From Deltaproteobacteria bacterium (GTDB lineage: Bacteria; Myxococcota_A; UBA796; UBA9615), in the NCBI GenBank assembly GCA_023954745.1, contig JAGSHC010000021.1, forward strand, positions 1-46,172: a stretch of 46,172 bases of DNA, read 5' to 3'. This document shows positions 2,631 to 37,633 of this stretch, in pieces. Under the pieces are notes generated by a model. It saw only the letters and a program-made list of their open reading frames with translations, was not told the origin of the DNA and did no database searches. The first letter of the stretch is position 1. The number at the start of each line of letters is the position of its first letter. The position numbers were made by a program, and so were the translations under genes.

Positions 2631-3557
2631 ATGGATCGTCTGTCCGCCATGAACGTATTCGTCCGCGTCGTCGACGAGAGCAGCTTCACCGCCGCTGCCC
2701 GCAGTCTGGGCATGCCTCGCAGCTCGGTGAGTCGGCAGCTGGCAGCTCTGGAGGAGCACCTCGGCGCGCGCCTGCTCAACCGGTCGACCCGCACCATGGC
2801 GCTGACCGAGGTCGGGCGGGCGTACTACGACCGCTGCGTACGCATCCTGGCCGACATCGACGAGGCGGAGACGGCCGTGGCGTCGCTCCAGACCAGCCCG
2901 CGGGGCACCCTGCGGATCACGGCCCCTCTCAGCTTCGGTCAGTCGTTCCTCGGCGGCACCGTCGCCCGATTCCTGACCGAGTACCCCGACGTCGACGTGG
3001 AGATGTCCCTCAACGACCGGGTGGTGGATCTGGTGGACGAGGGCTTCGACCTCGCCATCCGCATCGGACGGCTCCCCGACAGCTCGCTCATCGCCCGCAA
3101 GATCGGAACCGCCGACTCGGTCCTCTGCGCCTCAGAGGCCTATCTGCAGCGCGCGGGACAGCCGACCGACTTCGCCTCCCTCAAGGAGCACGAGTGCCTG
3201 CGCTATGCCTTTCAGACGATGGGCTGGCGCACCCGCGGTGGCGAGCTGCTCCACGTGAAGGGGCGCATGCTCGCGAACAATGGCGAGCTGCTGCTCCAGG
3301 CGGCCCTGGAGGGCCATGGCGTGCTCCTCAGCCCCCTCTTCATCGTCGGCCAGGCCCTGCAGCGTGGTGAGCTGACGCGCCTGCTCCCGGAGACGGAGTT
3401 CGAGCAAGCGGGCGTCTACGCGGTCTATCCGCACTCCCGACACCTCTCGGCGAAGGTGCGCCACTTCGTCGACTTCGTGCTGCGCGAGTTCAAGGGCGGA
3501 GCGCCCTGGGACCTCAGCCCTCCGCCCGTGAGCGACGCTCCCTCCGCGCCAGCGTGA
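2631..3557 (+). CDS. LysR-family transcriptional regulator
   Basis: 308 residues, typical LTTR length. N-terminal winged HTH (residues 1-60) with the classic pattern F-V-x-V-x-x-x-x-S-F-T-x-A-A, then S-x-V-S-R-Q-L-A-x-L-E and LLNRSTR. The effector-binding domain follows (~90-290), with the subgroup features DLAIRIG and GHGVLLSP that resemble the large AaeR/DmlR-type branch. The effector is unknown. The gene is divergent from the ARPP-1 gene. Its last 44 bases overlap the 3' end of the convergent sensor kinase gene; the C-terminal Pro/Ala tail lies in that overlap and is probably unstructured. Confidence 0.9.
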
Positions 3558-5730
3558 TCTGCCGCGCGAGGACTTCGGCGAGCTGCTCGGGGAGGAACGG
3601 CTTGGCGAGGTAGTCGTTCATGCCCGCCGCCAGGCATCGCTCCCGCTCGTCCCCCAGAGCGTGGGCCGTCACCGCGACGATGCGGTTGCGGCCGGGCTCC
3701 TCCTCCCGCAGCCGGATCTCCTCCGCCACTTCGTAGCCCGTCATGCCGGGCATCTGGCAGTCCATGAGGATGGCGTCGTAGGTGCTCTCCGTGAGCCGGT
3801 GGAGCGCCTGACGCCCATCCTCCGCCACCTCGACGGTGTAGCCGAGCCTCTCGAGCACCTTGGTGGCCAGCTCGCGGCCCACGGTGTTGTCATCCACCAC
3901 CAGGATCAGGCCTCCCGGCAGCATCACCGCGCCGGTGGATGGGTGCGAGACATCCGACGGCGTGCGCACCTTCAGCACGCTCGCTGCCACGCGCCACAGA
4001 TGACTCTCCAACACGGGCTTGCCCAGCCGCGCCGTGGACCGCCTCGCGAGAGGGCCCAGCTCGATGCTCTGGCCGAAGGGCATCAACAGCACGACCGGGG
4101 CGTCCGCCAGCTCACTTGCCTCGGCCAGGGCCTCCGCCACGGTGAGCTCCCCCGAAGGCTCCCGCGCCCTCGCGTCGAGGGCAATGAGATCCCACCCCTC
4201 GCCGGACCGCAGCTGCTTGCGGGCCCTGCGCGGGTCGCTCTCGGCGACGATGTCGGCTCCCCACGCTTGGAACAGGGTCTCGAGGACCTCGAGTTCGTGG
4301 GGGTGGGCACACCACACCAGGACACGCTTGCCCTTCAAGGGCTTGCCTTCTCGTGGGTCGCCGCCGTGGCCCTTGGCCCTCACCAGAGGCACCGAGAACC
4401 AGAAGGAGCTCCCTCCCTGGGGGAGGTTGGACGCACCGATGGTTCCTCCGAGAACGCCCACCAGTTCCTGGCAGATGGCGAGCCCCAGACCGATGCCCCC
4501 AGACCGCCGTGTGGGGAACGATGCAGCTTGGGTGAAGGGCTCGAACAGGGTCGCGTGGTCGGGACCGAGGCCAATGCCCGTGTCTTCCACCTGGAATCGG
4601 AGGCAGTCCCCATCGACGGTTCCCCGGACGGCGACGACCCCCTCCTCGGTGTACTTCACCGCGTTCCCCAGCAGGTTCACGAGCAGCTGTCGCAGGCGGT
4701 CGGGATCGCCCATCAGGCGTCGAGGGACCTCGGGATCCACGAGCCCCGTGAGCACCAGTCCCTTGCGCTGCGCGCCGGGCGAGAGCACCCGGACGGCGTC
4801 CTCCATGGGGCGCCGCGGGTCGAACTCCTCCATCTTCAGCTTCACCTGCCCCGCTTCGATCCGACTGAAGTCCAGGACGTCGTCGATGACGGCGAGCAGC
4901 GCGTCGGCCGACCGACGGATGGCCACCGCGTGCTCCCGCTGTTCGACGTCGAGCTTGCTGTCGAGTAGGAGCTCGTTCATCCCGATCACGCCGTGCATCG
5001 GGGTGCGGATCTCGTGGCTCACCCGGGCCACGAACTCGCTCTTCGCCAGGTTCGCGGCCTCGGCGCGATCGCGCGCCGACGCGAGCTCGGCGTTCGCCTC
5101 GCGAAGCTGCTGAAGGGTCGCCCTCTGTTGGGACTCTGCCCCCAGACGAGACTGTTCGAACAAGCTCGCCGCCGACGCGACGAAGAAGCAGGTGAGCGCA
5201 CCGACCACGGCGACGGTCCAGCTGTGGCCCACCTCGGAATACCTCGTGTCGGGCAGGAGCCCGGCGAGGTCGCAGCCCAGCAAGAGGGCGATCAGCCCCC
5301 CTTCGACAGCGGCAACCACCATCCCCGTGCGCGCCCCCCCGAGGAGCGTCCCCAAGAGCGGCAGGAGGGGGTAGACGATGATGGACGCGGAGCTCAGCCC
5401 GCCCTGGCCCCAAGCCGACATCGTCAGGACGACGAGGAACTGGAGCGGAAAGAAGAGCGTCGCCGGCCCCACCCACCCGCGGCGGAGCATGCCCAGAGTC
5501 ACTCCCCCTCCAGCCACCGCTGCGAGGGTCCACGCGGTGCTCGACGACGTCACCCCTCGGAAGAAGAGAGGCAGCGGGAGGTAAACCAGGGCAAAGGCGG
5601 CGAGCACGAAGGCGAAGGAAGACAGCAGAATCGCCCGCTCGGACTCGTGGGGTTTGAGCTCGGAGAACTCCCCAACAAGGGAGACGAGGAGCCGAACAAA
5701 GGCGGTTCGCTCTGGGGGCGGGGTGGGCAT
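3514..5730 (-). CDS. Hybrid sensor histidine kinase with two receivers
   Basis: 738 residues. About six hydrophobic segments (~33-190) form a membrane sensor without a recognisable ligand domain, then a short coiled coil (~195-230). HisKA has the H-box SHEIRTP with His239. The HATPase has the N-box around NLLGNAVKY (353-360), G1 DTGIGLG (383-389) and G2 GIGLGLAIC (412-420). Receiver 1 (~468-588) is degenerate: the acidic pair is replaced by CAHP. Receiver 2 (~608-725) is intact with D613/D614, phosphoacceptor D657, T688 and K710. The upstream sequence AGGGGGGCA is a good ribosome binding site. No cognate response regulator is adjacent, though the ECF sigma gene is transcribed divergently 20 nt away. 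Confidence 0.92.
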
Positions 5731-11508: not shown

Positions 11509-11615
11509 GCCAACCCTCCATCCCACACGCATCGTGCGGCGGCTCAGTCTGCCTCATCCCGGCACGGGGTCCAGGGAGGCCCTCCAAGGGACAGGAAAAA
11601 GTGGGACAATGAGGG

Positions 11616-11633
11616 CCGGGCAGGGGTGCCCGG
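11616..11633 (+). promoter_or_regulatory. Hairpin overlapping the ribosome-binding region of the pilus ATPase operon
   Basis: CCGGGCA-gggg-TGCCCGG, seven perfect G/C-rich pairs with a four-base loop. It ends inside the Shine-Dalgarno-like GGGGA (11632-11636) that precedes ATG 11638. If formed in the mRNA it would mask that site, so it could control translation of the operon or act as an upstream terminator-like element. No T run follows. Confidence 0.45.
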
Positions 11634-11645
11634 GGAAATGACGGA

Positions 11646-14411
11646 CTGAACCCAAAGACTGCTCAGAGGCAGCTCTCCGCTGCGGCATGGAAGAACCCAG
11701 GTGAGCTGCAGGCCTTCGCGCAGCAGCTGAGTCTCCTTCCAGCGTCCGAGCTCGCCCGGCTCCTGCCGTTGCTTCGCGCGGACGGCGTGGACGGGCGGCG
11801 GCGCTCGCGCGTCAGGGCCTTCACGGCGGCCACCGAGACGTCCACGGACGCCGCACTGTTCTTGCCCGCGTTGAAGGCGAGCATTCAGGGGGACGATCGT
11901 CTTCGCCGCGCGCTGCTCCCCCTGCTGATGCGCACGGCCCGCGGCGACGCGCTGGACCCGGTCGTGGAGCTGCTGCGCTCCGACGAGCGCGAGCTCCGGC
12001 GGTTTGCGCATCAGCTGCTGCTGGAGAAGGCCGACGTCCGCGTGCTGCCCAGGCTGGGCCGGCTGATGAGCACCCACAAGCAGGCGGGCACGCGGGAGGC
12101 CATGGAGATCGCGGCGCGGGTCGGCGGCGTGAAGGCGATCCCACTGCTGACGCCCTTCGTCACGGACGGCGAGCTGAAGCTCCGCCAACAGGTTCTCGAG
12201 CTGCTGGGGGACCCGGAGTACTTCGGGAAGACGCCCCGCCAGGCCCTGGAGGCCATCGCTCCGGCGCTGTCTGATCCGGCTCGGGCCATCGCCTTGGAGG
12301 CCTTCCGGTCCTACGCCGCCCTCGCGACCGCGGAGGACTTCTACGCCATGGTGCTCGACGTGTTCGAGGCGGGGGACGACCGGCGTCTCCAGCTCACGGC
12401 CGTCCAGTCCCTGGCCCGGTACGAGGGCGAGCGCACCGCCGAGGTGCTGGGGCACGTCTACCGCAACTCCCAGCACACCAGCGTGCGCTCCGCCGCCATC
12501 AAGGCGATTCGCCTTCGACGGGAGACGGGCGTGCTGCCAGTGCTCGGCGAGGCCATCGCGGACGACGACCCCGCCATTCGCGACATCGCCCTGGGCGCCC
12601 TCCGCAAGCTCTCGACGGTCCCCGACTTCGACCTCGCCCTGCTGCTGATGTGGCTGCTGAAGAGCGACCGGAAGGGCATCGCCGCCCAGGCCATGGATCT
12701 GCTTGCGGCCCTGGGGCCGCTCCCCGGGGACCTCTGGCCGCGCCTCCTGGAGCACCTGCGGTCCGAAGACTGGTGGACCCGAGAGCGGGTCACACAGCAC
12801 CTGCCCGCCATTGCTGGCCCCCAGCTGACCCAGCACATCGTGCATTGGTTGGGCGATCCCAGCCCGCTCATCCGCCGCTATGCCCTGGAGTGCCTCGCGC
12901 GGCTGCGGGACCCCCGGGTGATGGAGGCGTGCCTCGAGGTCGCCGTGGACGACCCCGATTGGTGGGTGCGCGAGCGCGCCATCGAGTGCGTCGCTGCGAT
13001 TGGCGATGCGGCCGCAGTGCCCCACCTGGTGGCCCTCGCTCGGGCCGACGACTCTCTCATGGCGGCGATCCTGCACGCTCTGCGCACTCTGCGGCACGCC
13101 GCGGCGCTCCCCCTGGTTCTCGAGATGCTCCAGCACGAGGACCCAGGGATCCGACACGAGGCCGTGCTCGCCCTGGAAGCCGTAGGCGAACCCTCGGTCG
13201 CCCACGTGATCTTCCCGCTCCTCAAGGACCCCGAGATCGAGGTCCGACGCTCTGCAGAAGAGCTCCTGGGGACCTGGAAGGCGCGGCACCACTCCATCGA
13301 GTCCGACCTGGGTGGACAAGTCGAGCAGCTGCCGCGGCTTCTGTGGCACATGACCAAGGCCAGAGGAGACGACCTGTTCCTTCGAGCCGGACAACCGGCG
13401 TTCATGAAGCGCATGGGCCACATGGTCCGCATCACCGACCGCGTCTACACGCCCCAGGAAGTCGAGATGATGCTCCGCTCCATCCTCTCGCGTACCCAGA
13501 CGCGTCAGGTGGAGAGTCTCAAGGACGTCGACCTGTCGATGGAACTCAAGGCGCGCGGGCTGCGGTTCCGAGTCAACGTGCTTCAGCAGGTCACGGGCTG
13601 GTCCGGGGTCTTCCGCCGGGTCTCGGAGACCGTGCACAGCTTCGAGGAGCTCCGCCTCCCGCCCCTCATCAAGAACCTGTGCGACCTTCCACACGGCCTC
13701 GTGATCGTGGGCGGACCCACCGGGAGTGGGAAGAGCACGACGCTGGCAGCGATGATCGGCTGGATCAATCAGCGCCATGGTCGCCACATCATCACGGTGG
13801 AGGACCCCATCGAGGTCGTACACCGCAACGCGCGCGCCATCGTCTCTCAGCGGGAAGTGGGGAGCCACACCCACTCGTTCAGCAACGCGCTGCGCAGCAC
13901 CCTTCGAGAAGATCCCGACGTCATCCTGGTGGGCGAGATGCGGGACGCTGAGACCATGTCCTTTGCGGTGACGGCGGCCGAGACGGGGCACCTCGTGCTC
14001 GCCACGCTGCACACCTCCTCTGCCCGCAACGGCATCGATCGGATGATCGACTCGTTCTCGTCGAGCCAGCAGCCGCAGATCCGCTCGATGCTCGCCCAGA
14101 CCCTGCGCGCCGTGGTGTGTCAGCAGCTGCTCCGACGACGCGACGGCCGCGGACGCCTGGTGGCGCTGGAGTTGCTGCTCAACACCGAGCCCGTGGCCGC
14201 GACCATTCGCAAGGGAACGACCTTCAACCTCCCGTCGATGATCAGCACCGGCAAGGCCCACGGGATGCAAGCGATGGACGAGGAGCTCAAGAAGCTCGTC
14301 GACGAGGGACTGGTCCATCCGTCGGAGGCCTACCTCAAGGCGCAGCGGAAGCCGGACTTCCACGAGTTCCTGGAGTCCCGAGGACTGGAGGCCGCCAATG
14401 CCAGCTCTTGA
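11646..14411 (+). CDS. HEAT-repeat protein fused to a PilT-type pilus ATPase
   Basis: About 921 residues if counted from 11646. Residues ~1-545 are alpha-alpha repeats of HEAT type (recurring patterns such as ALECLARLRDPRV and REDP-like turns), a protein-interaction solenoid. Residues ~560-900 are a complete PilT/PilU-type motor: PAS-like N-domain, Walker A GPTGSGKS (690-697), Asp box EDPIE (719-723), Walker B around GEMRD (763-767) and His box GHLVLATLHTSSA. Such hexameric ATPases drive type IV pilus retraction at the inner membrane. The start is uncertain: the frame is open from 11613 with no ATG or GTG, and the first standard start is TTG 11769. Residues encoded upstream of it look genuinely coding. 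The 3' end overlaps the next gene by 14 nt. Confidence 0.88.
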   Translation: MNPKTAQRQLSAAAWKNPGELQAFAQQLSLLPASELARLLPLLRADGVDGRRRSRVRAFTAATETSTDAALFLPALKASIQGDDRLRRALLPLLMRTARGDALDPVVELLRSDERELRRFAHQLLLEKADVRVLPRLGRLMSTHKQAGTREAMEIAARVGGVKAIPLLTPFVTDGELKLRQQVLELLGDPEYFGKTPRQALEAIAPALSDPARAIALEAFRSYAALATAEDFYAMVLDVFEAGDDRRLQLTAVQSLARYEGERTAEVLGHVYRNSQHTSVRSAAIKAIRLRRETGVLPVLGEAIADDDPAIRDIALGALRKLSTVPDFDLALLLMWLLKSDRKGIAAQAMDLLAALGPLPGDLWPRLLEHLRSEDWWTRERVTQHLPAIAGPQLTQHIVHWLGDPSPLIRRYALECLARLRDPRVMEACLEVAVDDPDWWVRERAIECVAAIGDAAAVPHLVALARADDSLMAAILHALRTLRHAAALPLVLEMLQHEDPGIRHEAVLALEAVGEPSVAHVIFPLLKDPEIEVRRSAEELLGTWKARHHSIESDLGGQVEQLPRLLWHMTKARGDDLFLRAGQPAFMKRMGHMVRITDRVYTPQEVEMMLRSILSRTQTRQVESLKDVDLSMELKARGLRFRVNVLQQVTGWSGVFRRVSETVHSFEELRLPPLIKNLCDLPHGLVIVGGPTGSGKSTTLAAMIGWINQRHGRHIITVEDPIEVVHRNARAIVSQREVGSHTHSFSNALRSTLREDPDVILVGEMRDAETMSFAVTAAETGHLVLATLHTSSARNGIDRMIDSFSSSQQPQIRSMLAQTLRAVVCQQLLRRRDGRGRLVALELLLNTEPVAATIRKGTTFNLPSMISTGKAHGMQAMDEELKKLVDEGLVHPSEAYLKAQRKPDFHEFLESRGLEAANASS

Positions 14412-15480
14412 TTCCTTCCTCGAGCTCGTCGTCGACCAGCGCGCCAGTGACTTGCACTTCAGCTCGGGCGGTCCCCCTGCGGTGCGGTTCAACGGCGAGC
14501 TGATCCCCGTCCCGTTCCGCAGCCTGAGCGAGCCCGAGGCGCGTCGGTTCCTCTACGAGCTCATGACCCCGGAACAGCAGGAGAGCTTCGAGACGCGCCA
14601 GGAGCTGGACTTCGCCTACGAGCTTCCGGGCCTGGCGCGCTTCCGAGCCAATGTCTTTGTGCACCGGAGCGGGATCGGAGCGGTCTTCCGGGTGATTCCG
14701 GAGGAGGTCCCGACGTTGGCCGAGCTCCGCCTGCCCACGGCCCTCCGACGAGTGACCCAGTACACCGATGGCCTCGTGCTCTTCACCGGCCCCACCGGCT
14801 CGGGCAAGACCACGACCCAGGCGGCGATCATCCAGGAGATCAACCGCACGCGCCCCCTGCACATCCTCACCATCGAGGATCCCATCGAGTTCCTGCACAC
14901 CGAAGAGCAGGCGGTGATCACCCAGCGGCAAGTGGGTCTGCACACCGCCTCGTTCCACGAGGCCCTGCGATCCGCGCTGCGCGAGTCCCCCGACGTGATC
15001 CTCGTGGGAGAGATGCGGGACCACGAGACCATCTCCCTCGCCCTGGCAGCCGCGGAGACCGGCGTCCTCGTGTTCGGGACCCTGCACACGGGGGCGGCCG
15101 CCAACGCCGTCGACCGCATCGTGGACGTGTTCCCGGAGGAGCAGGCTGAGCAGGTGCGCGGCTCCGTCAGCGTGACTCTTCGAGCCATCGTGGCGCAGCG
15201 ACTGGTCAAGGAAGAGCGCGGGACCGGACGCGCGGCGGCGGTGGAGTTGCTCTTCAACAACACGGCGGTCGCCCACATGCTTCGCCAGGGGAAGTCCCAC
15301 CAGATCGACGCGTACCTGCAGCAGATCGACGCCCGCGGGGGCAACCTCTCCCTGGACCGCTCCCTCCTCAACCTCGTGCGCTCTCGTCGGATCTCCGTCG
15401 AGGAGGCCGCCAAGCAGGCACGCTTCCCCCAGGCGTTCCTCGCCGCCGCCGAGCAGGTTGGAGGACGGCCGAGTTCATGA
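14398..15480 (+). CDS. PilT/PilU-like type IV pilus retraction ATPase
   Basis: 360 residues, normal PilT length. An N-terminal PAS-like domain begins with the family signature ASDLHFSSG. Walker A is GPTGSGKT (131-138), the Asp box EDPIE (~160), Walker B VGEMRD (~205) and His box FGTLHTGAA (~228). It is closely related in architecture to the C-terminal half of the preceding HEAT fusion protein but is not a simple duplicate, since loop sequences differ. The two together resemble a PilT + PilU pair, where the second ATPase modulates retraction force. It overlaps both neighbours (14 nt upstream; ATGA downstream), so the three genes form one operon. Confidence 0.92.
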   Translation: MPALDSFLELVVDQRASDLHFSSGGPPAVRFNGELIPVPFRSLSEPEARRFLYELMTPEQQESFETRQELDFAYELPGLARFRANVFVHRSGIGAVFRVIPEEVPTLAELRLPTALRRVTQYTDGLVLFTGPTGSGKTTTQAAIIQEINRTRPLHILTIEDPIEFLHTEEQAVITQRQVGLHTASFHEALRSALRESPDVILVGEMRDHETISLALAAAETGVLVFGTLHTGAAANAVDRIVDVFPEEQAEQVRGSVSVTLRAIVAQRLVKEERGTGRAAAVELLFNNTAVAHMLRQGKSHQIDAYLQQIDARGGNLSLDRSLLNLVRSRRISVEEAAKQARFPQAFLAAAEQVGGRPSS

Positions 15481-17912
15481 CCCCCCAGTCCCACCGCATC
15501 CTCATCGTCGAAGACGACCCCATCGTCCGACGTGTCTACCGCGCTACCCTCGGCCGGGCGGGCTACGACGTCCTCGAGGCCATCGACGCGCGCACGGGGT
15601 ACTCCATCGTGTGCGACTCGCCCCTGGACCTCATCCTGCTCGACCTCCGTCTCCCGGACGAGTCGGGGGCCGAGCTGGGGGCGCGCATTCACGCCGACCC
15701 CGACCTTGAGGGCATCCCCCTCATCGCCGTGTCCGGGGTGTCGAGCACCATCGAGCAGACCCACGCGCTCCAGTCGGCGTTTCGGGAGTTCCTGCTCAAG
15801 CCGGTCTCCCCCGCCCGCTTGCTCGAGGTGGTTCGCTCCTATCTGCCCCAAGAGGGGGACAGCGGGCTTCCGGGGAAGCAGCGGGCCGTGATCGTCGCCC
15901 ACCACGACGAGCTCCAGCGCGGCACCATGGCCCTGCGCTTTCGCCGGCAAGGCTTCGCCGTCCAGGAGGTCAAGACCGGGGTGGAGGCCCTCGAACTCGC
16001 CCTGAAGGATCCGCCCGCGGCGGTGCTCTCGGGGGTGCCGATGCCCCACCTCGACGGCTTCGGCCTCGCGCGGGCGATGCGGGGCGAGGCGAGCCTCCGG
16101 GACGTGCCCCTGGTCCTCGTCAGTCCCGACGCGCTCGAGACCCGTGACGTGGACGCCGCCCTCAGGGCGGGCGCCGCCGCCTACGTGCAGAGTGATGTCT
16201 CCATGGAGGCGGCGCTGACCACCGTGCACCGGCTCCTGGACGCGGCATCCTCTGGAACCTCCCAGGAGGTGGCCCCCCTCACCGACCAGGAGATCTTCGG
16301 CGGTGCGGACGGCTTCATCGAGTCCACCGACGCGTTGCGCGAGACCATGCCATCGATGCGCCTCGACGAGCGCACTGACCAGGCCTCGATGCCGCGGGTG
16401 GTCGACGCCCGGAGTCGGTCGCGACTGCTTCAGCAGCTCGAGCGGCAGGCCCAGATCACCAAGGAGCTGACGCGGATCACGAACCGTCAGGCCGCCCAGC
16501 TCTCCGTCCTCGCCGGAGTCTCCGAGACGCTGACCCGGACACGAGACCCCCAGGCGGCCATCGAGGAAGCCCTCGCGCGCTGCATGGACGTGAGCGTGTT
16601 CTCCCTCGGCGCCGCGTTCCTCGTGAGCGACGGAGGACGACTGTCCCTGGCGTCGCGCCACGGGTTCTCGGAGTCGCGACGAGGTCGACTGCCGGACCTG
16701 TTCGGGTACCGCCATCTGTTGCACCAGGCCCTGCACGAAGACGAGATCATCACCCTCCCCTCCTCCCGGGAGGACCTCCGGGATGGGCCCGGGCTGCTCG
16801 AAGCCACGGGGACCCACGCCATCCAGCTGGTCCCGCTCTCCGTGGGCGGACAGCGCCTCGGCGTCCTGGTGCTCGCGTCACCGGACCGAAGCCTGCGTCG
16901 ACGAGGCTTCGCCTTCGCGCGGACGATCCAGGGGCAGCTCGCTCAGGCGCTCCTCCTCGGTCACACCATGGACCAGCTCGCCATCTCGGAGCAGCGCTTC
17001 CGCAGGGTGACGGAGCGGATGGCCGAGGGCCTCTTCACGAGCAACCGGGACGAGAAGATCACGTTCCTCAACGACGCGGCGCGGCGCCTGTTCGGGCTGC
17101 CCATGCGCGCCGCGATCAGCCTCGACCTGGAGTCCCTGCTCCCGGGCATCGATCTGGACGCAGCCGTCTGGGAGGGCACCGCTCTCGCCCACGACGGAGC
17201 GCGGCCCACCGTGCGGGTCTCCACGTCGGTCCACGCCACCGGCGCGGAGCTGGAGCGCACGCACATCGTGCAGGACGTCACCGATGCTCGGCGCCAGGAG
17301 GAGCACTTGCGTGTGCTCGCCGAGCGCGATCCGTTGACCGGGCTCCTGAATCGTCGGAGCTTCCTCGCTGGGGTCGAAGAGGCGCTCACCGCGTCCGCCG
17401 AGACGGGAGCCATCGGCGCCGTCCTCTTCATCGACCTCGACGGCTTCAAGGCGGTCAACGACAACCACGGACACGCCGCGGGCGACTACGTCCTGGAGAA
17501 GCTCGCAGATGCGCTCTCCACCCGACTCCGTCGTACGGACCTGGTGGGTCGCATCGGGGGGGACGAGTTCGCCGTCCTCCAGCCGGGAGCCGACGAGCAG
17601 GCGGCCCTCGCCCTCGGGCACCAGATCCTGCGGATCGTCCAGGGGTTGCGTCCGCGGGTGGGCAAGAAGCGTGTGTCCATCGGCGCGTCGGTGGGCTGCG
17701 TGGTGTTCCCCCGGGACGGAGCGACGGACGAGCTCCTCCTCGAGCGCGCGGACGCCGCCATGTACGCCGCGAAGAACGCTGGTGGCCACGAGGTCGTGAT
17801 GTGGCGGGCCGAGTCCGTGGAGCCCCGCATGCTCCCCAAGGACGAGTGGGACCCGGAGAGCGGTGGGGTGTCCGAGCTCGACGAGCCGGACCTCGACCCG
17901 ACCCTGGACTAG
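15477..17912 (+). CDS. Receiver-receiver-GAF-PAS-GGDEF diguanylate cyclase
   Basis: 811 residues. Receiver 1 (~5-125) is intact: EDD, phosphoacceptor D in LLDLRLP, S and KPV. Receiver 2 (~135-255) is degenerate: the acidic pair reads HHD, the acceptor Asp is lost in LSGVPMP, and the Lys is absent. A coiled linker, GAF-like domain (~345-490) and PAS domain (~500-595) follow. The GGDEF domain (~605-775) has an intact GGDEF motif (~693-697) preceded five residues earlier by RRTD, a full RxxD product-inhibition site, so it should make c-di-GMP and be feedback-inhibited. Being translationally coupled (ATGA) to two pilus motor ATPases suggests it links a phosphorelay and c-di-GMP to twitching motility. 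Confidence 0.92.
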   Translation: MTPQSHRILIVEDDPIVRRVYRATLGRAGYDVLEAIDARTGYSIVCDSPLDLILLDLRLPDESGAELGARIHADPDLEGIPLIAVSGVSSTIEQTHALQSAFREFLLKPVSPARLLEVVRSYLPQEGDSGLPGKQRAVIVAHHDELQRGTMALRFRRQGFAVQEVKTGVEALELALKDPPAAVLSGVPMPHLDGFGLARAMRGEASLRDVPLVLVSPDALETRDVDAALRAGAAAYVQSDVSMEAALTTVHRLLDAASSGTSQEVAPLTDQEIFGGADGFIESTDALRETMPSMRLDERTDQASMPRVVDARSRSRLLQQLERQAQITKELTRITNRQAAQLSVLAGVSETLTRTRDPQAAIEEALARCMDVSVFSLGAAFLVSDGGRLSLASRHGFSESRRGRLPDLFGYRHLLHQALHEDEIITLPSSREDLRDGPGLLEATGTHAIQLVPLSVGGQRLGVLVLASPDRSLRRRGFAFARTIQGQLAQALLLGHTMDQLAISEQRFRRVTERMAEGLFTSNRDEKITFLNDAARRLFGLPMRAAISLDLESLLPGIDLDAAVWEGTALAHDGARPTVRVSTSVHATGAELERTHIVQDVTDARRQEEHLRVLAERDPLTGLLNRRSFLAGVEEALTASAETGAIGAVLFIDLDGFKAVNDNHGHAAGDYVLEKLADALSTRLRRTDLVGRIGGDEFAVLQPGADEQAALALGHQILRIVQGLRPRVGKKRVSIGASVGCVVFPRDGATDELLLERADAAMYAAKNAGGHEVVMWRAESVEPRMLPKDEWDPESGGVSELDEPDLDPTLD

Positions 17913-28674: not shown

Positions 28675-29913
28675 ATGTCCATGCGAACCAACTACGACGT
28701 CATCAACGCACCCCAGCAGCATGTCCCCGTGAAGACGTGGACCCAGGGCGTGCCCGTCGAGGACAAGGCGCGCAAGCAGCTGTCGCGCATCGCTGAGATG
28801 CCCTTCATCCACAAGTGGGTCGCGGCGATGCCCGACGTGCATGTGGGGATGGGCGCCACCATCGGCTCCGTGATCCCCATGGACCGCGCCATCATCCCCG
28901 CCGCCGTCGGCGTGGACATCGGCTGCGGGATGATGGCCGTGCGCACCTCCATCACCGCCTCCCAGCTCCCGGACAACCTCGCCCCCGTGCGAGGCGTCAT
29001 CGAGGCTGCGGTTCCCCATGGCCGCACCCACAACGGAAAGCCGTCGCGGGACAAGGGCGCCTGGGGGAACGTCCCGGACGTCGTGGACAACGCCTGGTCG
29101 GACCTCGCCGACGAGTTCATGGAGCTGACCGACAAGCACCGCGCCCTCCGCAAGGCGAACGCGCGACCGCACCTCGGAACGCTTGGGACCGGCAACCACT
29201 TCATCGAGCTCTGTCTCGATGAGCAAGGCCGCGTCTGGGTGATGCTGCACTCGGGGTCCCGCGGAGTCGGAAACCGCATCGGGAGCTACTTCATCGAGCT
29301 CGCCAAGAAGGACATGGAGACCTACTTCATCAACCTGCCGGACCGGGACCTGTCCTACTTCCCGCAGGGCACGGAGCACTTCACCGACTACATCGGCGCC
29401 GTCGACTGGGCCCAGCGGTTCGCCATGCGCAACCGCGAGGTGATGATGGCGGCGGTCCTCAAGGCCATGAAGAAGAGCAAGGTGCTGCCTCGCTTCGAGA
29501 GCCATCTCGAGGCCGTGAACTGTCACCACAACTACGTGGCGCGCGAGCACCACTACGGCAAGAACGTGTGGCTCACCCGCAAGGGCGCAGTGCGGGCCCG
29601 CAAGGGCGACCTGGGCATCATCCCTGGCTCGATGGGAGCGCGCTCCTTCATCGTGCGCGGGCTGGGGAACGACGAGTCGTTCCACTCGTGTTCACACGGG
29701 GCTGGTCGGGTCATGAGCCGCACGGCGGCGAAGCGCCAGTTCACGCTGAAGGACCACCGTCGGGCCACGGAGGGCGTCGAGTGCCGCAAGGACAAGGACG
29801 TGCTCGACGAGACCCCAGGCGCGTACAAGGACATCGACGCGGTCATGGCCGCGCAGTCCGACCTCGTCGAGGTCGTGTACACGCTCAAGCAGGTGGTCTG
29901 CGTGAAGGGCTAG
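28675..29913 (+). CDS. rtcB: RNA-splicing ligase RtcB
   Basis: 412 residues, the usual bacterial length. RtcB joins RNA 2',3'-cyclic phosphate or 3'-phosphate ends to 5'-OH ends using GTP and manganese. The metal and guanylylation residues are all visible: GVDIGCGM with Cys84, GTGNHFIEL with His175, HSGSRGVGN with His192, NCHHN (~283-286) and HSCSHGAGR with His341, the residue expected to form the GMP adduct. ATG 28675 follows GGAGGA by 8 nt. It is driven by its own sigma-54 promoter and is convergent with rtcR, unlike the E. coli rtcBA operon. Confidence 0.97.
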   Translation: MSMRTNYDVINAPQQHVPVKTWTQGVPVEDKARKQLSRIAEMPFIHKWVAAMPDVHVGMGATIGSVIPMDRAIIPAAVGVDIGCGMMAVRTSITASQLPDNLAPVRGVIEAAVPHGRTHNGKPSRDKGAWGNVPDVVDNAWSDLADEFMELTDKHRALRKANARPHLGTLGTGNHFIELCLDEQGRVWVMLHSGSRGVGNRIGSYFIELAKKDMETYFINLPDRDLSYFPQGTEHFTDYIGAVDWAQRFAMRNREVMMAAVLKAMKKSKVLPRFESHLEAVNCHHNYVAREHHYGKNVWLTRKGAVRARKGDLGIIPGSMGARSFIVRGLGNDESFHSCSHGAGRVMSRTAAKRQFTLKDHRRATEGVECRKDKDVLDETPGAYKDIDAVMAAQSDLVEVVYTLKQVVCVKG

Positions 29914-29929
29914 GCCCTCCGAGGGGCCC
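29914..29929. terminator. Hairpin after rtcB
   Basis: GGCCC-tccgag-GGGCC begins immediately after the rtcB stop. It is G/C-rich but has no T run, so it is a weak terminator candidate in the 96-base convergent gap between rtcB and rtcR. Confidence 0.35.
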
Positions 29930-29953
29930 GATCTCGGCGTCGCTCACTCGGTT

Positions 29954-29970
29954 GCGTATGTCACATACGC
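29954..29970. promoter_or_regulatory. 17-base perfect palindrome between rtcB and rtcR
   Basis: GCGTATGT-c-ACATACGC. The one-base centre makes an RNA hairpin unlikely and suggests a dimeric protein site or a chance palindrome. It lies between convergent 3' ends, where a promoter operator is not expected. Confidence 0.35.
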
Positions 29971-30009
29971 GTCCCTCGTGGCTCCTTGACCTCGGGCCGA
30001 TCGAGGCAC

Positions 30010-31653
30010 CTACTTGGTGGTCACCTCGGCGAAGGTCACCCCCCACTTGAGCAGGTATTTGCGGATCCGGTCGGCGTCGTTCGTCTTGCTGCGCGCCTTG
30101 CGCGACTCGGCGAACAGGCGTCGGCCGGCTTCGCTCATCGTCCGACTGCGTCGGCACACGCCGAAGACGTCCGCGAGCTGCACCAGTTCGAAGCGGTCGA
30201 CGCTCTGGGCCACCTCGTCACCCAACACCTCGGCCACCAACGCCCGGCACGCCCCGAACGAGGTGGGTGCTCCCGTCTCGTCCCCCACATCGCGCCAGTC
30301 ACTGCGCAGGCGCGTCACCTCTTCGTCCACTACGTCCGCAGTGATCCGCGCACCGGGCGCCAGGGTGCCCATGCGAGTCACGCTCGCGTTGAGGTCACGA
30401 AAGTTCCCCGCCCACGTGGCCTCGGCGCCGGTCGCGAAGTCCAGATAGCGAGTACGAGCCTCGGCGTTGAACGCGATTCGGCGGCCTTGATGCCGTGCAA
30501 ACGACTCCAACTCGAACTCGAGGTTCGGCTCCAGGTCCTCGATGCGTTCAGAGAGTCCGGGCAACCGAAAGGTCCACAGGTTGATGCGAGCCAGGAGGTC
30601 GCTGCGGAACTCCCCTCGGCCCACGGCCACGACCAGATCCTTGTTGGTGCCCGCGATGAGCTGGAAGTCGCTGCGCACTTCGCGGTCGGCGCCAAGAGGA
30701 ACGAAGACCCCCTCCTCGATGGCACGGAGCAGCATTGCCTGCTCATCGAGGCCCAGCTCCCCGATCTCGTCGAGAAAGACGAGCCCACCGTCCGCCGCCT
30801 TCAGCAGGCCCGCGCGGTCGCTCACCGCCCCCGTGAACGCGCCGCGCGTGTGCCCGAAGAGAGCGGACATGGCCGCATCCCCTCGGAGCGTCGCGCAGTT
30901 CACCTCCACATAGTCCCCGGTGACCGTGCGCCGCTGACTGCGCAACGAGTAGATGCGCTTGGCGAGGCGCGTCTTCCCCGCTCCCGTGGGGCCCGTCAAC
31001 AGGATGGGCGCGGTGCTCGCCAGGGCCACGCGCTCGATCTGGTCCATCATCCGGTTGAACGCGGCGTTGCGCGTCGGGATGCCCTGCTTGAGCAGCGAGA
31101 CGCCTTCGGCCCGCTCCGCGTCGAAGCGCTGCGCGATGGAGTCGTACTTCGACAGGTCCAGATCGATGATGGAGTAGCGCCCGACTCGCCGGTCCTGCCG
31201 CTCTCGCCGGTCCCGCCGCGTGATGGGGGAGGTCTGGAGGAGCCGCGCCGGGATGTGACGAGACTCGGCCAGCAGAAACATGCAGATCTGCTGCACGTGG
31301 GTGCCGGTGGTGATGTGGAGCAGATACTCCTCGTTCTCTGGGTCGAACCGATGGGAGCGGGCGAACTCGTAGAGCGTGCGCCAGACCTCCTCGAAGTCCC
31401 ACGGATCGGCGAAGTTCGTCCCGTGGAGCTGCACCGTGCAATCGGGCGCCACCGCCCCGAGGTCCTCCACCACCTGTCGACCGAGCGCGGTGAACTTCGG
31501 CTCCACGAGGAGCTCGATGCGGTGCGGGAGAAGGTCCTCCATCTGCCCGAGGGAGACGGTGGGGCGCCACTTCTCCCAACGCTTGGCCCCCTTGCCGGAG
31601 TCCAGGGTCGCTCCCACGATGCCAAGCACGACGAGTCTCTTGGTGTCGCTCAT
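30010..31653 (-). CDS. rtcR: Sigma-54-dependent activator RtcR
   Basis: 547 residues from ATG 31653; an upstream in-frame start at 31704 adds a non-homologous tail. Residues 1-~185 are the RtcR-type CARF-like sensor, with the ligand-site-like ITTGTHVQQICMFLLAE (114-130). The AAA+ domain has Walker A GPTGAGKT (221-228), the sigma-54 contact loop GAFTGA (271-276), Walker B VFLDEIGELG and an R-finger region. The C-terminus is helical. In E. coli, RtcR senses RNA ends or cyclic-phosphate products and then activates sigma-54 transcription of rtcBA. Here it sits between rtcB and rtcA, divergent from rtcA, and both genes have sigma-54 promoters. Confidence 0.95.
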   Translation of the reverse strand: MSDTKRLVVLGIVGATLDSGKGAKRWEKWRPTVSLGQMEDLLPHRIELLVEPKFTALGRQVVEDLGAVAPDCTVQLHGTNFADPWDFEEVWRTLYEFARSHRFDPENEEYLLHITTGTHVQQICMFLLAESRHIPARLLQTSPITRRDRRERQDRRVGRYSIIDLDLSKYDSIAQRFDAERAEGVSLLKQGIPTRNAAFNRMMDQIERVALASTAPILLTGPTGAGKTRLAKRIYSLRSQRRTVTGDYVEVNCATLRGDAAMSALFGHTRGAFTGAVSDRAGLLKAADGGLVFLDEIGELGLDEQAMLLRAIEEGVFVPLGADREVRSDFQLIAGTNKDLVVAVGRGEFRSDLLARINLWTFRLPGLSERIEDLEPNLEFELESFARHQGRRIAFNAEARTRYLDFATGAEATWAGNFRDLNASVTRMGTLAPGARITADVVDEEVTRLRSDWRDVGDETGAPTSFGACRALVAEVLGDEVAQSVDRFELVQLADVFGVCRRSRTMSEAGRRLFAESRKARSKTNDADRIRKYLLKWGVTFAEVTTK

Positions 31654-31662
31654 GAGCGAGAG

Positions 31663-31680
31663 ACTAGCGGACGAGCTAGT
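31663..31680 (+). promoter_or_regulatory. Candidate RtcR upstream activating site of rtcA
   Basis: ACTAGC-ggacga-GCTAGT, six-base perfect arms, just upstream of the rtcR start and 71 bases before the rtcA -24 element. It shares the ACTAG/GCTAG elements with the site before rtcB. CCCACGA (31700) and GCAAACG (31711) follow in the same order as at rtcB. Confidence 0.5.
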
Positions 31681-31733
31681 ACCCAGCGTGGGCGACGAGC
31701 CCACGAACCAGCAAACGCCTGGGTCTTCGTGGC

Positions 31734-32866: not shown

Positions 32867-33745
32867 TCAGGGGGTCAGGTTCGTCCAGGGGAAGCCGCCG
32901 CAGCCACCGGTGGAGGGGCTCGTCGCATCGGCAGCGGCCGTCGCCAGGGCGTCGGCCTCCGTCGCGGCGTCGTAGGCGGTGGTGCACGACCACCAACCCC
33001 CGTCGACCTCGACGAAGTCAAAGCGGGTCCACAGGTCGGCGTTGAACGTGTTCTTGGAGCCGTTCTGCGCGATGGCGTAGCCGGCAGCGTTGTCGAACTG
33101 GGTGATGGCGAAGCGCGCGAGGTCGTCGCCGGTCATCACCGACCACTCGGTGTCGGTGATGGTGTTGTCACCCGTGTACTCGTCCGTGTGCACGCCTGCG
33201 ATGGCAATGCGGGCGGGGTCGGCGGTCAGCGCAGACCAGCCGAAGCCTCCGCAACCGGCGACCAGGTCGCTCGCGTCGGCCGGCGTCGCGTCGATGGCCG
33301 CCTGCTCCGACGCTCCCTCGTAGACGGACTGGCAGAAGTACCCCGCGCCCTGCTCTTCGGTCCACTCGAAGCGGCTCCAGAGATCGGGTGCGAACCCGTT
33401 CGTGCTCGCGTTCTGGGCGATGATCAGCTGGTTCTGCTCGTCCATGGAGACGATGTCGTAGCGGCTCGTGCCGAACTCGCTCCAGCTCAGCCAGGCCTCG
33501 TCGTTCACGGCGATGCCGGATCCAAACCCGTCGTCGAAGACGCCGAAGATGGAGAAGGGGGTACCGGTGGCGTCGTCGTCGTCGCCGGTGGCGTCGTCGT
33601 CGTCGCCGGCGGAGTCGTCGTCGTCGCCCGTGGCGTCGTCGTCGTCACCGGCGGAGTCGTCGTCGTCGCCCGTGCTGGGGCACGCAGACAGGCCGAAGGT
33701 TCCAAGGCCCAGGAGCGCGAGAAAGAGAAAGAGTCGATGGTTCAT
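32867..33745 (-). CDS. Asp-rich repeat lipoprotein with two tandem domains
   Basis: 292 residues. Signal peptide with lipobox LSAC (Cys22), then five seven-residue units of DDDDSAG / DDDDATG type (~26-61), a likely Ca-binding or spacer stalk. The rest is two similar ~110-residue domains, each with an I-x-G-V start, an IAQN-G-x-N-x-F-x-x-DLW-x-R-F core, a Cys-containing segment, and a C-GGF-W end. This internal duplication is clear but matches no family I know. Exposed on an outer or inner membrane; function unknown. GAGGA precedes the ATG. Confidence 0.8.
   Translation of the reverse strand: MNHRLFLFLALLGLGTFGLSACPSTGDDDDSAGDDDDATGDDDDSAGDDDDATGDDDDATGTPFSIFGVFDDGFGSGIAVNDEAWLSWSEFGTSRYDIVSMDEQNQLIIAQNASTNGFAPDLWSRFEWTEEQGAGYFCQSVYEGASEQAAIDATPADASDLVAGCGGFGWSALTADPARIAIAGVHTDEYTGDNTITDTEWSVMTGDDLARFAITQFDNAAGYAIAQNGSKNTFNADLWTRFDFVEVDGGWWSCTTAYDAATEADALATAAADATSPSTGGCGGFPWTNLTP
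33570..33674. repeat. Five 21-base tandem repeats encoding Asp stalk
   Basis: Five in-frame units close to GCGTCGTCGTCGTCGCCGGTG (plus strand) run from 33570 to 33674. Alternating units differ at their edges (GCG versus GAG, CCGGTG versus CCGGCG/CCCGTG), giving DDDDATG or DDDDSAG on the minus strand. Such arrays can vary in length by slippage without breaking the frame. Confidence 0.85.
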
Positions 33746-34068: not shown

Positions 34069-37000
34069 TCAAGGGCCGTCGTAGAGAGTGAGTGCCCTTT
34101 GCAGCACCATCCCGGCCAGCCGGTTCGTGGCCTCGTGGGGGGCTCCCGCACCGGGGGCCTCCGGATACCCTCGGTGCTCGAGCCGAATCTGTGGGCTCGC
34201 CCGAAGCTGGCGCGCTCCTTCGGGGTCTCCCCCAGCGCGATATGCCCTGGCTTGAGCGAGCTCGACGTGACCACGCACGAGACCGACGAACGCCTCTCCT
34301 GAACGGTCAACCACCGCCTCCGACGCTTCGGAGAGGAGCACATCGGCTTGGACAAGCTCGTCCCGGTCGGCTGCGATGGCCGCACGGCATCCCAGGACCG
34401 AGGCCACCATCCAGCCCCCTTCGTCCCCCTCGAGGGCGATCTCGGCGCGCCCCAGTACCTCCGCGGCTTCGTCCAGACGCCCACCGAGGTGCAGCAGCGA
34501 CGAGAGATACCGCCAGGCCGCTCCGATGTAGTAGGGGCTACCGAAGCGCTGGAGGAGCAGCGCCCCCTCCCGAGACATGGAGGTGGCCACGTCGAGCTCC
34601 CCAAGGAGGCCCGTAGCGACCGCGAGGTTCATGAGCAGGATGCCTCTGGCCCTGCGGTTCCCGATGCGTTCGTGCATCCGCATCGCCTGGGCGAACTCCC
34701 GGCGGCCCCGCTCGATCTCTCCGGCCTGCACCGAGAGCAGTCCGAGGTTCGCCAGGGTCGTCGCCTGTCCGCGCCGGTTCCCGGCCTCGCGATGGAGCGC
34801 CAGGGACTGCTGGAAGAGCTCGGTGGCCCGACCGTGGCGCAGGCTCTGCGCGTTGCCGATGGCGAGCGTGTTGATGAGCTGTGCCGCGAGGCTGAGCATC
34901 CCCAGCTCCATGCACAGGGCGATGGCCTGCTCGAGGCGGGCCTCAGAGCCATCGATGGCCCCGGTGAGGAAGGACTCGGCCCGTCCCATGAGCCCCAGCG
35001 CCATCGCATCGAGGGTCCTGTCGGACGATGCAGCCGCCAAGGCTTCGAGACGACGGGCGATCTCCAGCGCGTCGGAGGTGCCCCCACGGTCGAGCAACAT
35101 GTTGGCCGTGGCTGCCAACACGGCCCCCTCCAAGCGGCGCTCCGCATGGTCCCGCGCCAGCGTCAACGCGGCGTCGAGGTCTTCTTCGGCCTCGATGAAC
35201 GCCGCCCGCACCGTGCGCATCTTCCCGCGCACCAGGAGGAGCCTCGCCAGCAGCAGCCCAATGTCGGCGCGCTCCGCAGCCAGGCCCTCGGCCGCGGCGA
35301 CGGCGCGGTCGATCAGGAGCACATGACCGTCGAGCGGCCCCGTGACGAGGAGGACCGGAGTCATGACGAGCGCAGCACGGACGGCCAGGTCGGGCTGAGT
35401 CTCGACGTGGCGCGCGAACACCGCGTGCAGGTTGTCGAGTTCGAGGGCCAGGGAGCGCCGCGCGGTCCGGCCCTTCGGACCGTCGACCAGGTCCAGCTGC
35501 CGCTCGCCCCAATCCAGATAGTGGCGAGCATGTCGGACCCAGGTGGCCGTACGCTCCTCCTCCTCGAGTTGCTCGGAGGCGAACTCCCGAATGCTCTCGT
35601 AGAGACGAAAGCGAATGCTGCCGCCGAGGGACCGCACCTGCTCCGCTCGCACCAGGGACTTGTCGCGTAGGGCCTCGATGGCGTCCAGAGCCCAACCTCC
35701 GTCCAGCGCCACGACCTCCTCCGCGGCGGCGAGGTCGAAGCTGCCCCGAAACACCGAGCACTGCGCCAGCGCTGACTGCTCATCGGGCTCGAGCAGATTC
35801 CAGGACCACTCGATGGCTCCCTGCAGCGTGGCTTGACGGTCGGGGCCTCCTCGTCGTGATCGGAGGAGCTTGAAGCGCTCGCTCAGGCGCTCCAGGATCT
35901 GCGCGGGGGTCAGGACCCCGGCGCGCGCCGCCGCGAGCTCGATGGCGAGAGGGATGTAGTCGAGGCGACGGACGATCCGCTCGACCACGTCGGCCACCAC
36001 GTCCGTGACCGCGAAGTCCGGGGCCACGTTCCTGGCGCGGGCTCGGAACAACTGCACGGCCGCGTCGGGATCCAGCGGGCCCAAAGAGAGCTCGTGTCCG
36101 CCCGCCACGCGAAGGCGCTCGCGCGAGGTGACGAGGATCACCGCATCGCTCGCCACATCAAGCCAGCGGCGCAGTGCCTCGCCCACGGGCTCCACCACCT
36201 GCTCGACATTGTCGAGGATGAGCAGCACCTTGCCCCGCCCCGCGATGGCGTACCCCACTTGATCCATGGCGGCCTCGAGCCCCCGCGCGCGGTCGAGGGG
36301 GACCCCCAGAGGAGCCGCGACCGCCGACAGGACCGTCAAGAGATCCGTGGCCGGCGCGAGGTCGCAGAACCATGCGCCGCCAGCAGGGAGGTAGGCATCC
36401 ATTCGCTTCTGGGCGAAGGCCCGAACGAAGCGCGTCTTCCCGGTGCCCGCGGGGCCGACCACGGAGACGAGGTGCGCTCCGTCGTCGATGAGGGTGCCCA
36501 ACGCCGCGAGGTCCTCCTGGCGACCGACGAACTCGGAGCGTTCCGCGACGATGTTCGTGCGGACCCCCAGACCATGGGAAGTGCCCGCAAAGCCCGTCCC
36601 CAGACTCGCTCCTGGCGGGTTGGCCAGGTGGGGAGCATGGTCCGACGCCCCGGTCACCGACAGGGCCCCGAGATCGAGTGAAGGATGGGACCTGTTGCCC
36701 AGGACCACAGCGTCGAGCCAGGACCGCAAGCTCGGGCCCGCCGGTTGCTGCCGCAGAAGGGCCCTCAGCGCGTCGACGAGGCCTCGCGTGCGGTCAAACC
36801 GGTCCGAAGGCTCGCGCCGAAGACAAAGCCTCAGGATGGCTCTCAGCCCGGGCACGTGAGCGTCCGCCGGCTGCAGGAACTCCGGATCCGCCAGGGACTG
36901 CTCGACCTGAACCAGGGCCATGACCAGCGCGATGATGTTGTCGCGCAGGAAGGGTCGCTCCCCAGTGGCAAGCTCGAACAGCATGATTCCGAACGAGAAG

Positions 37001-37614
37001 AGGTCCGAGCGGGGGTCGAGGTCCTCCCCCGAGGCCTGCTCGGGCGACATGTACGCCGGGGTTCCGCGCACCGTTCCCGACATCGTGGCCTCGGCCCCCT
37101 GCGTCGCCCGGGCGAGCCCGAAGTCCATGACCTTCGCGACGCCCTGGCGGCTGACGAGCACGTTGGCCGGCTTCAGATCCCGGTGGACGAGCGCGAGGTG
37201 GCGGCCCTCGTCCTGGAGCTCGTGAGCGTGCATCAGACCCTCGGCCACCTGGATCGCGAGGTCCAGAACCACGGTGGGCGGCAGGCGAGGCTGATCCCGC
37301 AAGAGCGCATCGAGGGGCCAGCCGTCCACGAGCTCCATCGCGAGCCAAGGCTGACCCTCGGTGGTGCCGAAGTCGTAGACGTCCACGACGTTTGGATGGT
37401 GGAGCAGCCCACAGAGCCGGGCTTCGGAGACGAACGCCTGGGCGGTAGCCTCCCGGTCCCCGTCGTCCCGCGGGCGAATCACCTTGAGCGCCAGCTCCTT
37501 GCGGAAACCCGAAGGCCCCGTGAGGGTCGCCCGATACACCCGCCCCATCCCCCCCTGCCCAAGGAGGGAAGTGAGCTGATAGCGGCCGAAGGTCTGGGGG
37601 AAGTTGGCTTTCAC
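34069..37614 (-). CDS. Ser/Thr kinase-STAND ATPase-TPR fusion protein
   Basis: 1181 residues from GTG 37614. The kinase domain (~11-285) is intact: GQGGMGRVY, Lys44, HRDLKPAN with Asp146, DFG with Asp164, and SPEQ in place of APE. A linker follows, then a STAND/NB-ARC-like ATPase (~370-690) with P-loop VGPAGTGKT (~386-394), Walker B LLILDNVEQV and a G-x-P-like YIPLAIELAAARA. The C-terminus (~705-1150) is TPR-like repeats of the MalT/AfsR kind. Such proteins in Myxococcota integrate protein phosphorylation with ligand-triggered assembly; the target is unknown. There is no transmembrane helix. The start is 20 nt after the esterase lipoprotein gene, so they are probably co-transcribed. The frame is open further upstream through that gene but is not real there. 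Confidence 0.88.
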   Translation of the reverse strand: MKANFPQTFGRYQLTSLLGQGGMGRVYRATLTGPSGFRKELALKVIRPRDDGDREATAQAFVSEARLCGLLHHPNVVDVYDFGTTEGQPWLAMELVDGWPLDALLRDQPRLPPTVVLDLAIQVAEGLMHAHELQDEGRHLALVHRDLKPANVLVSRQGVAKVMDFGLARATQGAEATMSGTVRGTPAYMSPEQASGEDLDPRSDLFSFGIMLFELATGERPFLRDNIIALVMALVQVEQSLADPEFLQPADAHVPGLRAILRLCLRREPSDRFDRTRGLVDALRALLRQQPAGPSLRSWLDAVVLGNRSHPSLDLGALSVTGASDHAPHLANPPGASLGTGFAGTSHGLGVRTNIVAERSEFVGRQEDLAALGTLIDDGAHLVSVVGPAGTGKTRFVRAFAQKRMDAYLPAGGAWFCDLAPATDLLTVLSAVAAPLGVPLDRARGLEAAMDQVGYAIAGRGKVLLILDNVEQVVEPVGEALRRWLDVASDAVILVTSRERLRVAGGHELSLGPLDPDAAVQLFRARARNVAPDFAVTDVVADVVERIVRRLDYIPLAIELAAARAGVLTPAQILERLSERFKLLRSRRGGPDRQATLQGAIEWSWNLLEPDEQSALAQCSVFRGSFDLAAAEEVVALDGGWALDAIEALRDKSLVRAEQVRSLGGSIRFRLYESIREFASEQLEEEERTATWVRHARHYLDWGERQLDLVDGPKGRTARRSLALELDNLHAVFARHVETQPDLAVRAALVMTPVLLVTGPLDGHVLLIDRAVAAAEGLAAERADIGLLLARLLLVRGKMRTVRAAFIEAEEDLDAALTLARDHAERRLEGAVLAATANMLLDRGGTSDALEIARRLEALAAASSDRTLDAMALGLMGRAESFLTGAIDGSEARLEQAIALCMELGMLSLAAQLINTLAIGNAQSLRHGRATELFQQSLALHREAGNRRGQATTLANLGLLSVQAGEIERGRREFAQAMRMHERIGNRRARGILLMNLAVATGLLGELDVATSMSREGALLLQRFGSPYYIGAAWRYLSSLLHLGGRLDEAAEVLGRAEIALEGDEGGWMVASVLGCRAAIAADRDELVQADVLLSEASEAVVDRSGEAFVGLVRGHVELAQARAYRAGGDPEGARQLRASPQIRLEHRGYPEAPGAGAPHEATNRLAGMVLQRALTLYDGP

Positions 37615-37633
37615 TGCCGGAGAGGGTCGCCGT

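Follow-up and report, generated by a model that had tools for sequence, protein, structure and literature searches.

HEAT-PilT fusion ATPases and their partner PilTs, an apparently undescribed PilT-family variant found across a phylum

HEAT-PilT fusion proteins encoded next to a second PilT are a real and phylum-wide variant of the PilT family that is apparently undescribed. No description of a HEAT-PilT was found in the open-licence literature, and a survey of myxobacterial pili reports many scattered ('randomly distributed') PilT homologs with HEAT not mentioned (PMC6060248). The window analysed here, a stretch of 46,172 nucleotides from the 7.1-Mb genome of a deltaproteobacterium (G000; contig JAGSHC010000021.1), carries one such pair, the HEAT-PilT gene A and the partner PilT gene B, followed by the GGDEF-protein gene C (Table 1). 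A preliminary description of this DNA had proposed a three-gene operon in which c-di-GMP or phosphorelay input controls pilus retraction. The operon-type layout was borne out by the overlaps of 14 nt between A and B and 4 nt between B and C, and full-length family matches together with conservation rule out chance open reading frames or artefacts. Of the findings, the motor pair with its usual cassette is the stronger one, and the case for c-di-GMP control is weak.

Gene A lies in a frame that is open from 11613 to 14411. Its CTG start at 11646 (LNPKTAQ..) aligns to the ATG of the full-length paralog on contig C408 of the same genome (MNYRAAK..). The first ATG, GTG or TTG of the frame, TTG 11769, was rejected as start codon because it would remove the N-terminal part shared with this paralog. 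Pfam recognized HEAT_2 (143 bits, four stretches) and T2SSE (164 bits) in the translation. Both A and B matched the PilT/PilU model TIGR01420 over its full length (410.9 and 425 bits; curated cut-off 319.1), whereas every other secretion-ATPase equivalog scored below its own cut-off. The Walker A motif, the Asp box, the Walker B glutamate and the ATP-contacting HIS-box histidine are all present in the two window proteins. For gene A, the full-length match and the intact catalytic motifs confirm that a complete PilT motor lies behind the HEAT region. In an AlphaFold model, residues 1-545 of A formed an all-helical solenoid (pLDDT mainly 75-92, with lower values over the first ~100 residues). 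For the motor core the model was poor, as expected of a thin alignment of four sequences (window A and B plus one relative). Foldseek matched the N-terminal part to the HEAT solenoids of PP2A PR65 and SF3B1, and the C-terminal part to P. aeruginosa PilT. Profile score, helical model and fold matches thus agree with the earlier claim of ~545 HEAT residues before the motor, and the helices and HEAT matches rule out a non-HEAT fold for this region. Within the solenoid, block 361-390, which contains the motif DWWxRER, was as conserved as the ATPase core among 31 sequences of the window's subtype (type I). The motif was not found in the eight HEAT-PilTs of a second subtype (type II) that were tested. 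A specific partner-binding face would be the natural reading of this patch.

Table 1. Positions of the motor genes, gene C and their features in the window
Feature	Positions	Strand	Evidence
Gene A, HEAT-PilT fusion ATPase, 921 aa, CTG start	11646..14411	+	Open frame, profile matches, paralog alignment
HEAT solenoid of A, residues 1-545	11646..13280	+	Pfam HEAT_2 143 bits; all-helical AF2 model; Foldseek to PP2A PR65
Conserved HEAT patch DWWTRER, residues 375-381	12768..12788	+	Conservation of block 361-390
Second conserved HEAT patch DWWVRER, residues 438-444	12957..12977	+	Paralog alignment, conservation
PilT/PilU-type ATPase domain of A, with intact Walker A, Asp box, Walker B and HIS box	13329..14351	+	TIGR01420 411 bits; motif table
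A/B overlap, 14 nt	14398..14411	+	
Gene B, partner PilT ATPase, 360 aa	14398..15480	+	TIGR01420 425 bits
B residue V223, Val in place of the first HIS-box histidine	15064..15066	+	Motif table
B/C overlap, 4 nt (ATGA)	15477..15480	+	
Gene C, REC-REC'-GAF-PAS-GGDEF, PleD-like, 811 aa	15477..17912	+	Pfam domains, residue alignment
Intact receiver domain of C	15498..15833	+	Pfam PF00072; acidic pocket, Asp and Lys present
GGDEF domain of C with RxxD I-site (RRTDLVGRIGGDEF)	17322..17786	+	Pfam PF00990 138 bits; residue alignment

The pair is not confined to this locus. Among the 23 T2SSE-family matches of the window's own genome are three HEAT-PilT and PilT pairs, in the window, on C408 (L009) and on C471 (L010). 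Full-length or HEAT-spanning matches with a second PilT adjacent recurred among 58 relatives. Across 379 genomes of the phylum, probably Myxococcota, type I was represented by at least 31 full-length loci, distributed over 28 genomes, and type II by at least 33 further HEAT-spanning loci, both numbers being lower bounds with two candidates scored per genome. At class level, type I was present in 10 of 71 genomes, and the same-genus relative G001 is without a type I pair. At every locus with clear gene starts the two genes overlap or are separated by a few bases. The preliminary description had treated the fusion as a departure from the standard PilT layout and had named, as evidence against its reading, HEAT-PilTs that are common and unlinked to signalling genes. 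The first half of this is what we observed, the fusion being widespread in the phylum. Two further loci are recorded here as observations. A metagenome-assembled genome of the candidate division CSSED10-310, outside the window's phylum, carries a type I HEAT-PilT, a PilT and a TPR gene that is cut by the contig end (L049:5536-10034). On C471 of the window's own genome, the type II pair is followed by a Ser/Thr kinase gene (L010:4863-8456).

The phylogeny of 102 PilT domains, obtained by maximum likelihood with references that included a single PilU (9n32, on a long branch), resolved four groups, one each for the HEAT-PilTs and the partner PilTs of the two subtypes. All four fell outside the reference PilTs, PilU and the operonic PilT. 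Support was strong for three groups and weak for the type II partners alone (81/31), which together with a pair of genome G006 (L038) that belongs with type II had strong joint support. The clades of A and B are separate and congruent, which indicates joint inheritance of the two genes. Each clade places the window copy as sister to the C408 copy, so the two genes were also duplicated together.

The two members of the pair differ at one conserved position. The first HIS-box histidine (ETGH), which is common to reference PilT and PilU proteins and lies outside the curated family definition, was kept in 44/44 HEAT-PilTs and in 0/43 partner PilTs of the two subtypes, the partners having V, L, F, M, S or T instead. 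No paper found in the open-licence literature describes this split. In G. metallireducens PilT, whose HIS box spans T221 to H230, the contact between these two residues crosses the subunit interface and H230 alone touches ATP (PMC6858323). The residue lost in B is therefore not the ATP-contacting one, the H230 equivalent is retained, and B need not be dead; the change sits in a subunit-interface motif. Some type II HEAT-PilTs have changes of a different kind, with the ATP-contacting histidine replaced by Asn or the Walker B glutamate by Asp or Gln. The C471 copy carries both Glu → Asp and His → Asn, which suggests a weakened or structural ATPase. Together, the HIS-box split and the motif losses of type II suggest that the two subunits play complementary parts, and a mixed A+B hexamer is possible on this basis. 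To our knowledge, all PilT-family hexamers solved so far are homomeric.

These data bear on an alternative that we consider rather unlikely, namely that A and B are a PilT/PilU-like tandem of separate homohexameric retraction ATPases, with HEAT serving as an accessory tether and drift as the cause of the HIS-box change in B. Tandems of pilT and pilU are a precedent, and the retention in both window proteins of Walker A, Asp box, Walker B and the ATP-contacting histidine is as such a tandem would have it. Moreover, PilT and PilU of V. cholerae each form a homohexamer of their own (PMC6821130), which keeps stacked or independent rings alive as a rival. However, a loss fixed in every one of the 43 partners across both subtypes is unlike drift, and A and B form clades of their own, neither of which includes the PilU sequence: 9n32, the one PilU of the tree and a long branch, grouped with T. 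thermophilus PilT.

The normal type I cassette is HEAT-PilT, PilT and a TPR-Ser/Thr kinase. Among the 26 type I loci readable past B, the TPR-kinase gene stood directly behind B in 20, and Pfam Pkinase scored 148-172 bits in those kinase genes that were scanned. In another four, all Sandaracinaceae-like, the place was taken by a TPR-type gene that is related but encodes no kinase domain, the resemblance being judged by eye in two of the four. Further loci, cut by contig ends after the start of the TPR gene, lie outside the 26. The only departures were the two copies of the window's own genome, with gene C in the window and no third gene on C408. In the Sandaracinus-like genomes (L071-L075), the third gene keeps its TPR-type array and is without a kinase domain where fully readable. 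These sequences suggest that the core function of the third gene resides in its TPR part. Although kinases are plentiful, as the ~120 kinase-like matches in the window's own genome illustrate, TPR-kinases that are homologous and stand at the same place in many families constitute conserved synteny. One of the ~120 matches is encoded in the window at 34072-38001 (minus strand); this Ser/Thr kinase of 1310 aa has AAA and TPR-like regions. We also considered that the TPR-kinase had moved elsewhere in this genome and rejected this, as none of the ~120 matches covered the TPR part of the query except one weak fragment.

Conservation of the kinase slot across families supports, in general form, the view that the motor has a signalling partner to itself. 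Of the dedicated motor and signalling unit that the preliminary description had envisaged, the signalling gene next to the motor nearly always recurred at type I loci, whereas its identity did not, the usual partner being a TPR-Ser/Thr kinase and not a GGDEF protein. The search for neighbours of HEAT-PilTs gave a similarly divided answer: a signalling gene is usual in type I, but the C408 copy is without one.

Gene C itself had been described as a receiver/GGDEF protein. Both domains are there, but the actual layout is REC-REC'-GAF-PAS-GGDEF, and the second receiver (REC') has lost the phosphoacceptor Asp and the Lys. The residues are thus those of a PleD-like protein, with a phosphorylatable receiver, a degenerate second one and a GGDEF domain with an I-site. 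Alignment also upheld the intact GGDEF and RxxD motifs of a predicted diguanylate cyclase. As gene C scored 198.7 bits against the PleD equivalog NF007135 (cut-off 474), we regard it as PleD-like by layout, without classing it as PleD, and as a putative diguanylate cyclase. A hybrid histidine kinase (HisKA-HATPase-REC; 3517-5730, minus strand), encoded ~6 kb from the motor genes, is a possible candidate phosphodonor for its receiver. Elsewhere in the window, genes for an RtcB RNA ligase and an RtcR sigma-54 activator lie close together on opposite strands (28675-31704), and a predicted lipoprotein-like gene with long Asp-rich tracts (GDDDDATGDDDD...) at 32867-33745 (minus strand) has counterparts at many loci of the genome.

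Orthologs of gene C are 56% identical in the same-genus genome G001 and 45% in G004. A contig of G001 matches the window block on both sides, with the MFS gene on one and ADH and the next gene on the other, and has a PAS-GGDEF-EAL gene beside the C ortholog at the place that CitMHS, Usp, A and B occupy in the window. There, the C ortholog lies 25 bases behind the PAS-GGDEF-EAL gene, placing synthase and phosphodiesterase-type proteins next to each other (L085:6292-10666). Gene C therefore existed and was kept without A and B, and its link to the motors is lineage-specific; the claim that the GGDEF gene is part of a dedicated motor unit is weakened by this syntenic ortholog of a sister species, which has no adjacent motor. 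The motors may either have arrived beside C or have been lost in G001, and the displaced EAL gene has no close match in the window's own genome that would tell the order (best match 37% identical). A dedicated c-di-GMP unit conserved across relatives is ruled out, as no GGDEF third gene occurred at the other type I loci examined and the C ortholog of G001 is without motors.

We give considerable weight, slightly short of an even chance, to the reading that the motor pair is real but came to lie beside an independent c-di-GMP gene, C, that is neutral towards it and has no functional tie to it. This accords with the PAS-GGDEF-EAL gene in place of CitMHS-Usp-A-B in the matching block, with the restriction of the GGDEF third gene to the window among type I loci examined, and with the C408 copy, which has no third gene. 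On the other hand, nearly all other type I loci use the third place for signalling, and the ATGA overlap implies that B and C are co-transcribed, with translational coupling likely. Neither A nor B gave a Pfam match to MshEN or PilZ, the known c-di-GMP receptor domains, so that c-di-GMP action would need another receptor. Control of retraction by c-di-GMP is accordingly a weak hypothesis, and docking of the motor by HEAT is likewise hypothetical.

Our own reading, to which we assign about an even chance, is that A and B are two subunits of a specialised accessory PilT-family pilus motor, inherited as a pair and with the third gene as regulatory input. The two would cooperate as mixed hexamers or stacked rings on the base of a type IVa pilus and pull or release pili. 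The HEAT solenoid of A may occupy the position of the N-terminal regulatory domain of PilB-type ATPases and act as a docking arm, whose DWWxRER face would bind a pilus-base or regulatory protein. Input would normally come from the TPR-kinase; in the window's lineage, a PleD-like diguanylate cyclase would have been co-opted instead and have become coupled to B in translation. Once phosphorylated on its first receiver, C would dimerise and raise the local c-di-GMP level, and any effect on the motor would be exerted via a separate receptor. A more specific version is put forward tentatively and as somewhat doubtful: A and B would form a mixed, hetero-oligomeric retraction motor whose active-site roles are divided between them, with HEAT arms crowning it as a docking platform and with an exchangeable control subunit (mostly the TPR-Ser/Thr kinase, here a phospho-gated diguanylate cyclase).

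The pilus function and regulation of A-B are inferred from sequence. The window's own genome has a type IVa pilus core, with a pilB-pilT-pilC-like operon on C438 and PilM, and A-B are located apart from its pil genes. This unlinked position is also what one would expect if A-B drove a non-retraction machine, for example secretion or cell-surface assembly with a PilT-type motor, as are the 23 T2SSE-family matches and several GspF/PilC-type platform proteins of the genome and the changed Walker B glutamate or ATP-contacting histidine of some type II HEAT-PilTs. We nevertheless consider such a machine improbable: A and B score above the cut-off of the PilT/PilU model and below those of all other secretion-ATPase equivalogs, and no other envelope machine lies nearby among the genes scanned. 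On the preferred reading, an accessory pilus motor, pilus pulling may have a built-in control point in the A-B pair. These bacteria are known for numerous additional PilT copies that lack an explanation, M. xanthus having four. With paired PilTs that differ across a phylum by a fixed HIS-box residue, mixed or coupled retraction motors become directly testable, and the conserved kinase partner (here GGDEF) is a handle on how pilus pulling is switched.

The known systems closest to these genes include the PilT/PilU family of retraction ATPases (TIGR01420), with the solved structures 3jvu, 6ojx and 5fl3 for PilT and 9n32 for PilU. Like PilT and PilU of type 4a pili, A and B show a complete family match and intact catalytic motifs, and A is ~42-43% identical to P. 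aeruginosa PilT in the aligned core. Unlike them, A has an N-terminal HEAT solenoid of ~545 residues and B is without the first HIS-box histidine, and both clades stand apart from the operonic PilT, P. aeruginosa PilT and PilU. As in the pilT-pilU tandem, two adjoining PilT-family genes read as one unit, but in the window HEAT is fused to the product of the first gene, and the PilU included falls outside both clades. The extra N-terminal domain on A and the proposed tie to c-di-GMP recall the PilB/MshE-type ATPases with their N-terminal c-di-GMP-binding MshEN domain, whereas A has HEAT in its place and no c-di-GMP-binding domain was detected. Finally, gene C shares with PleD (REC-REC'-GGDEF) an intact first receiver, a degenerate second one and a GGDEF domain with RxxD, but differs in having GAF and PAS before GGDEF, in scoring below the PleD equivalog cut-off and in being encoded behind a pilus motor pair.
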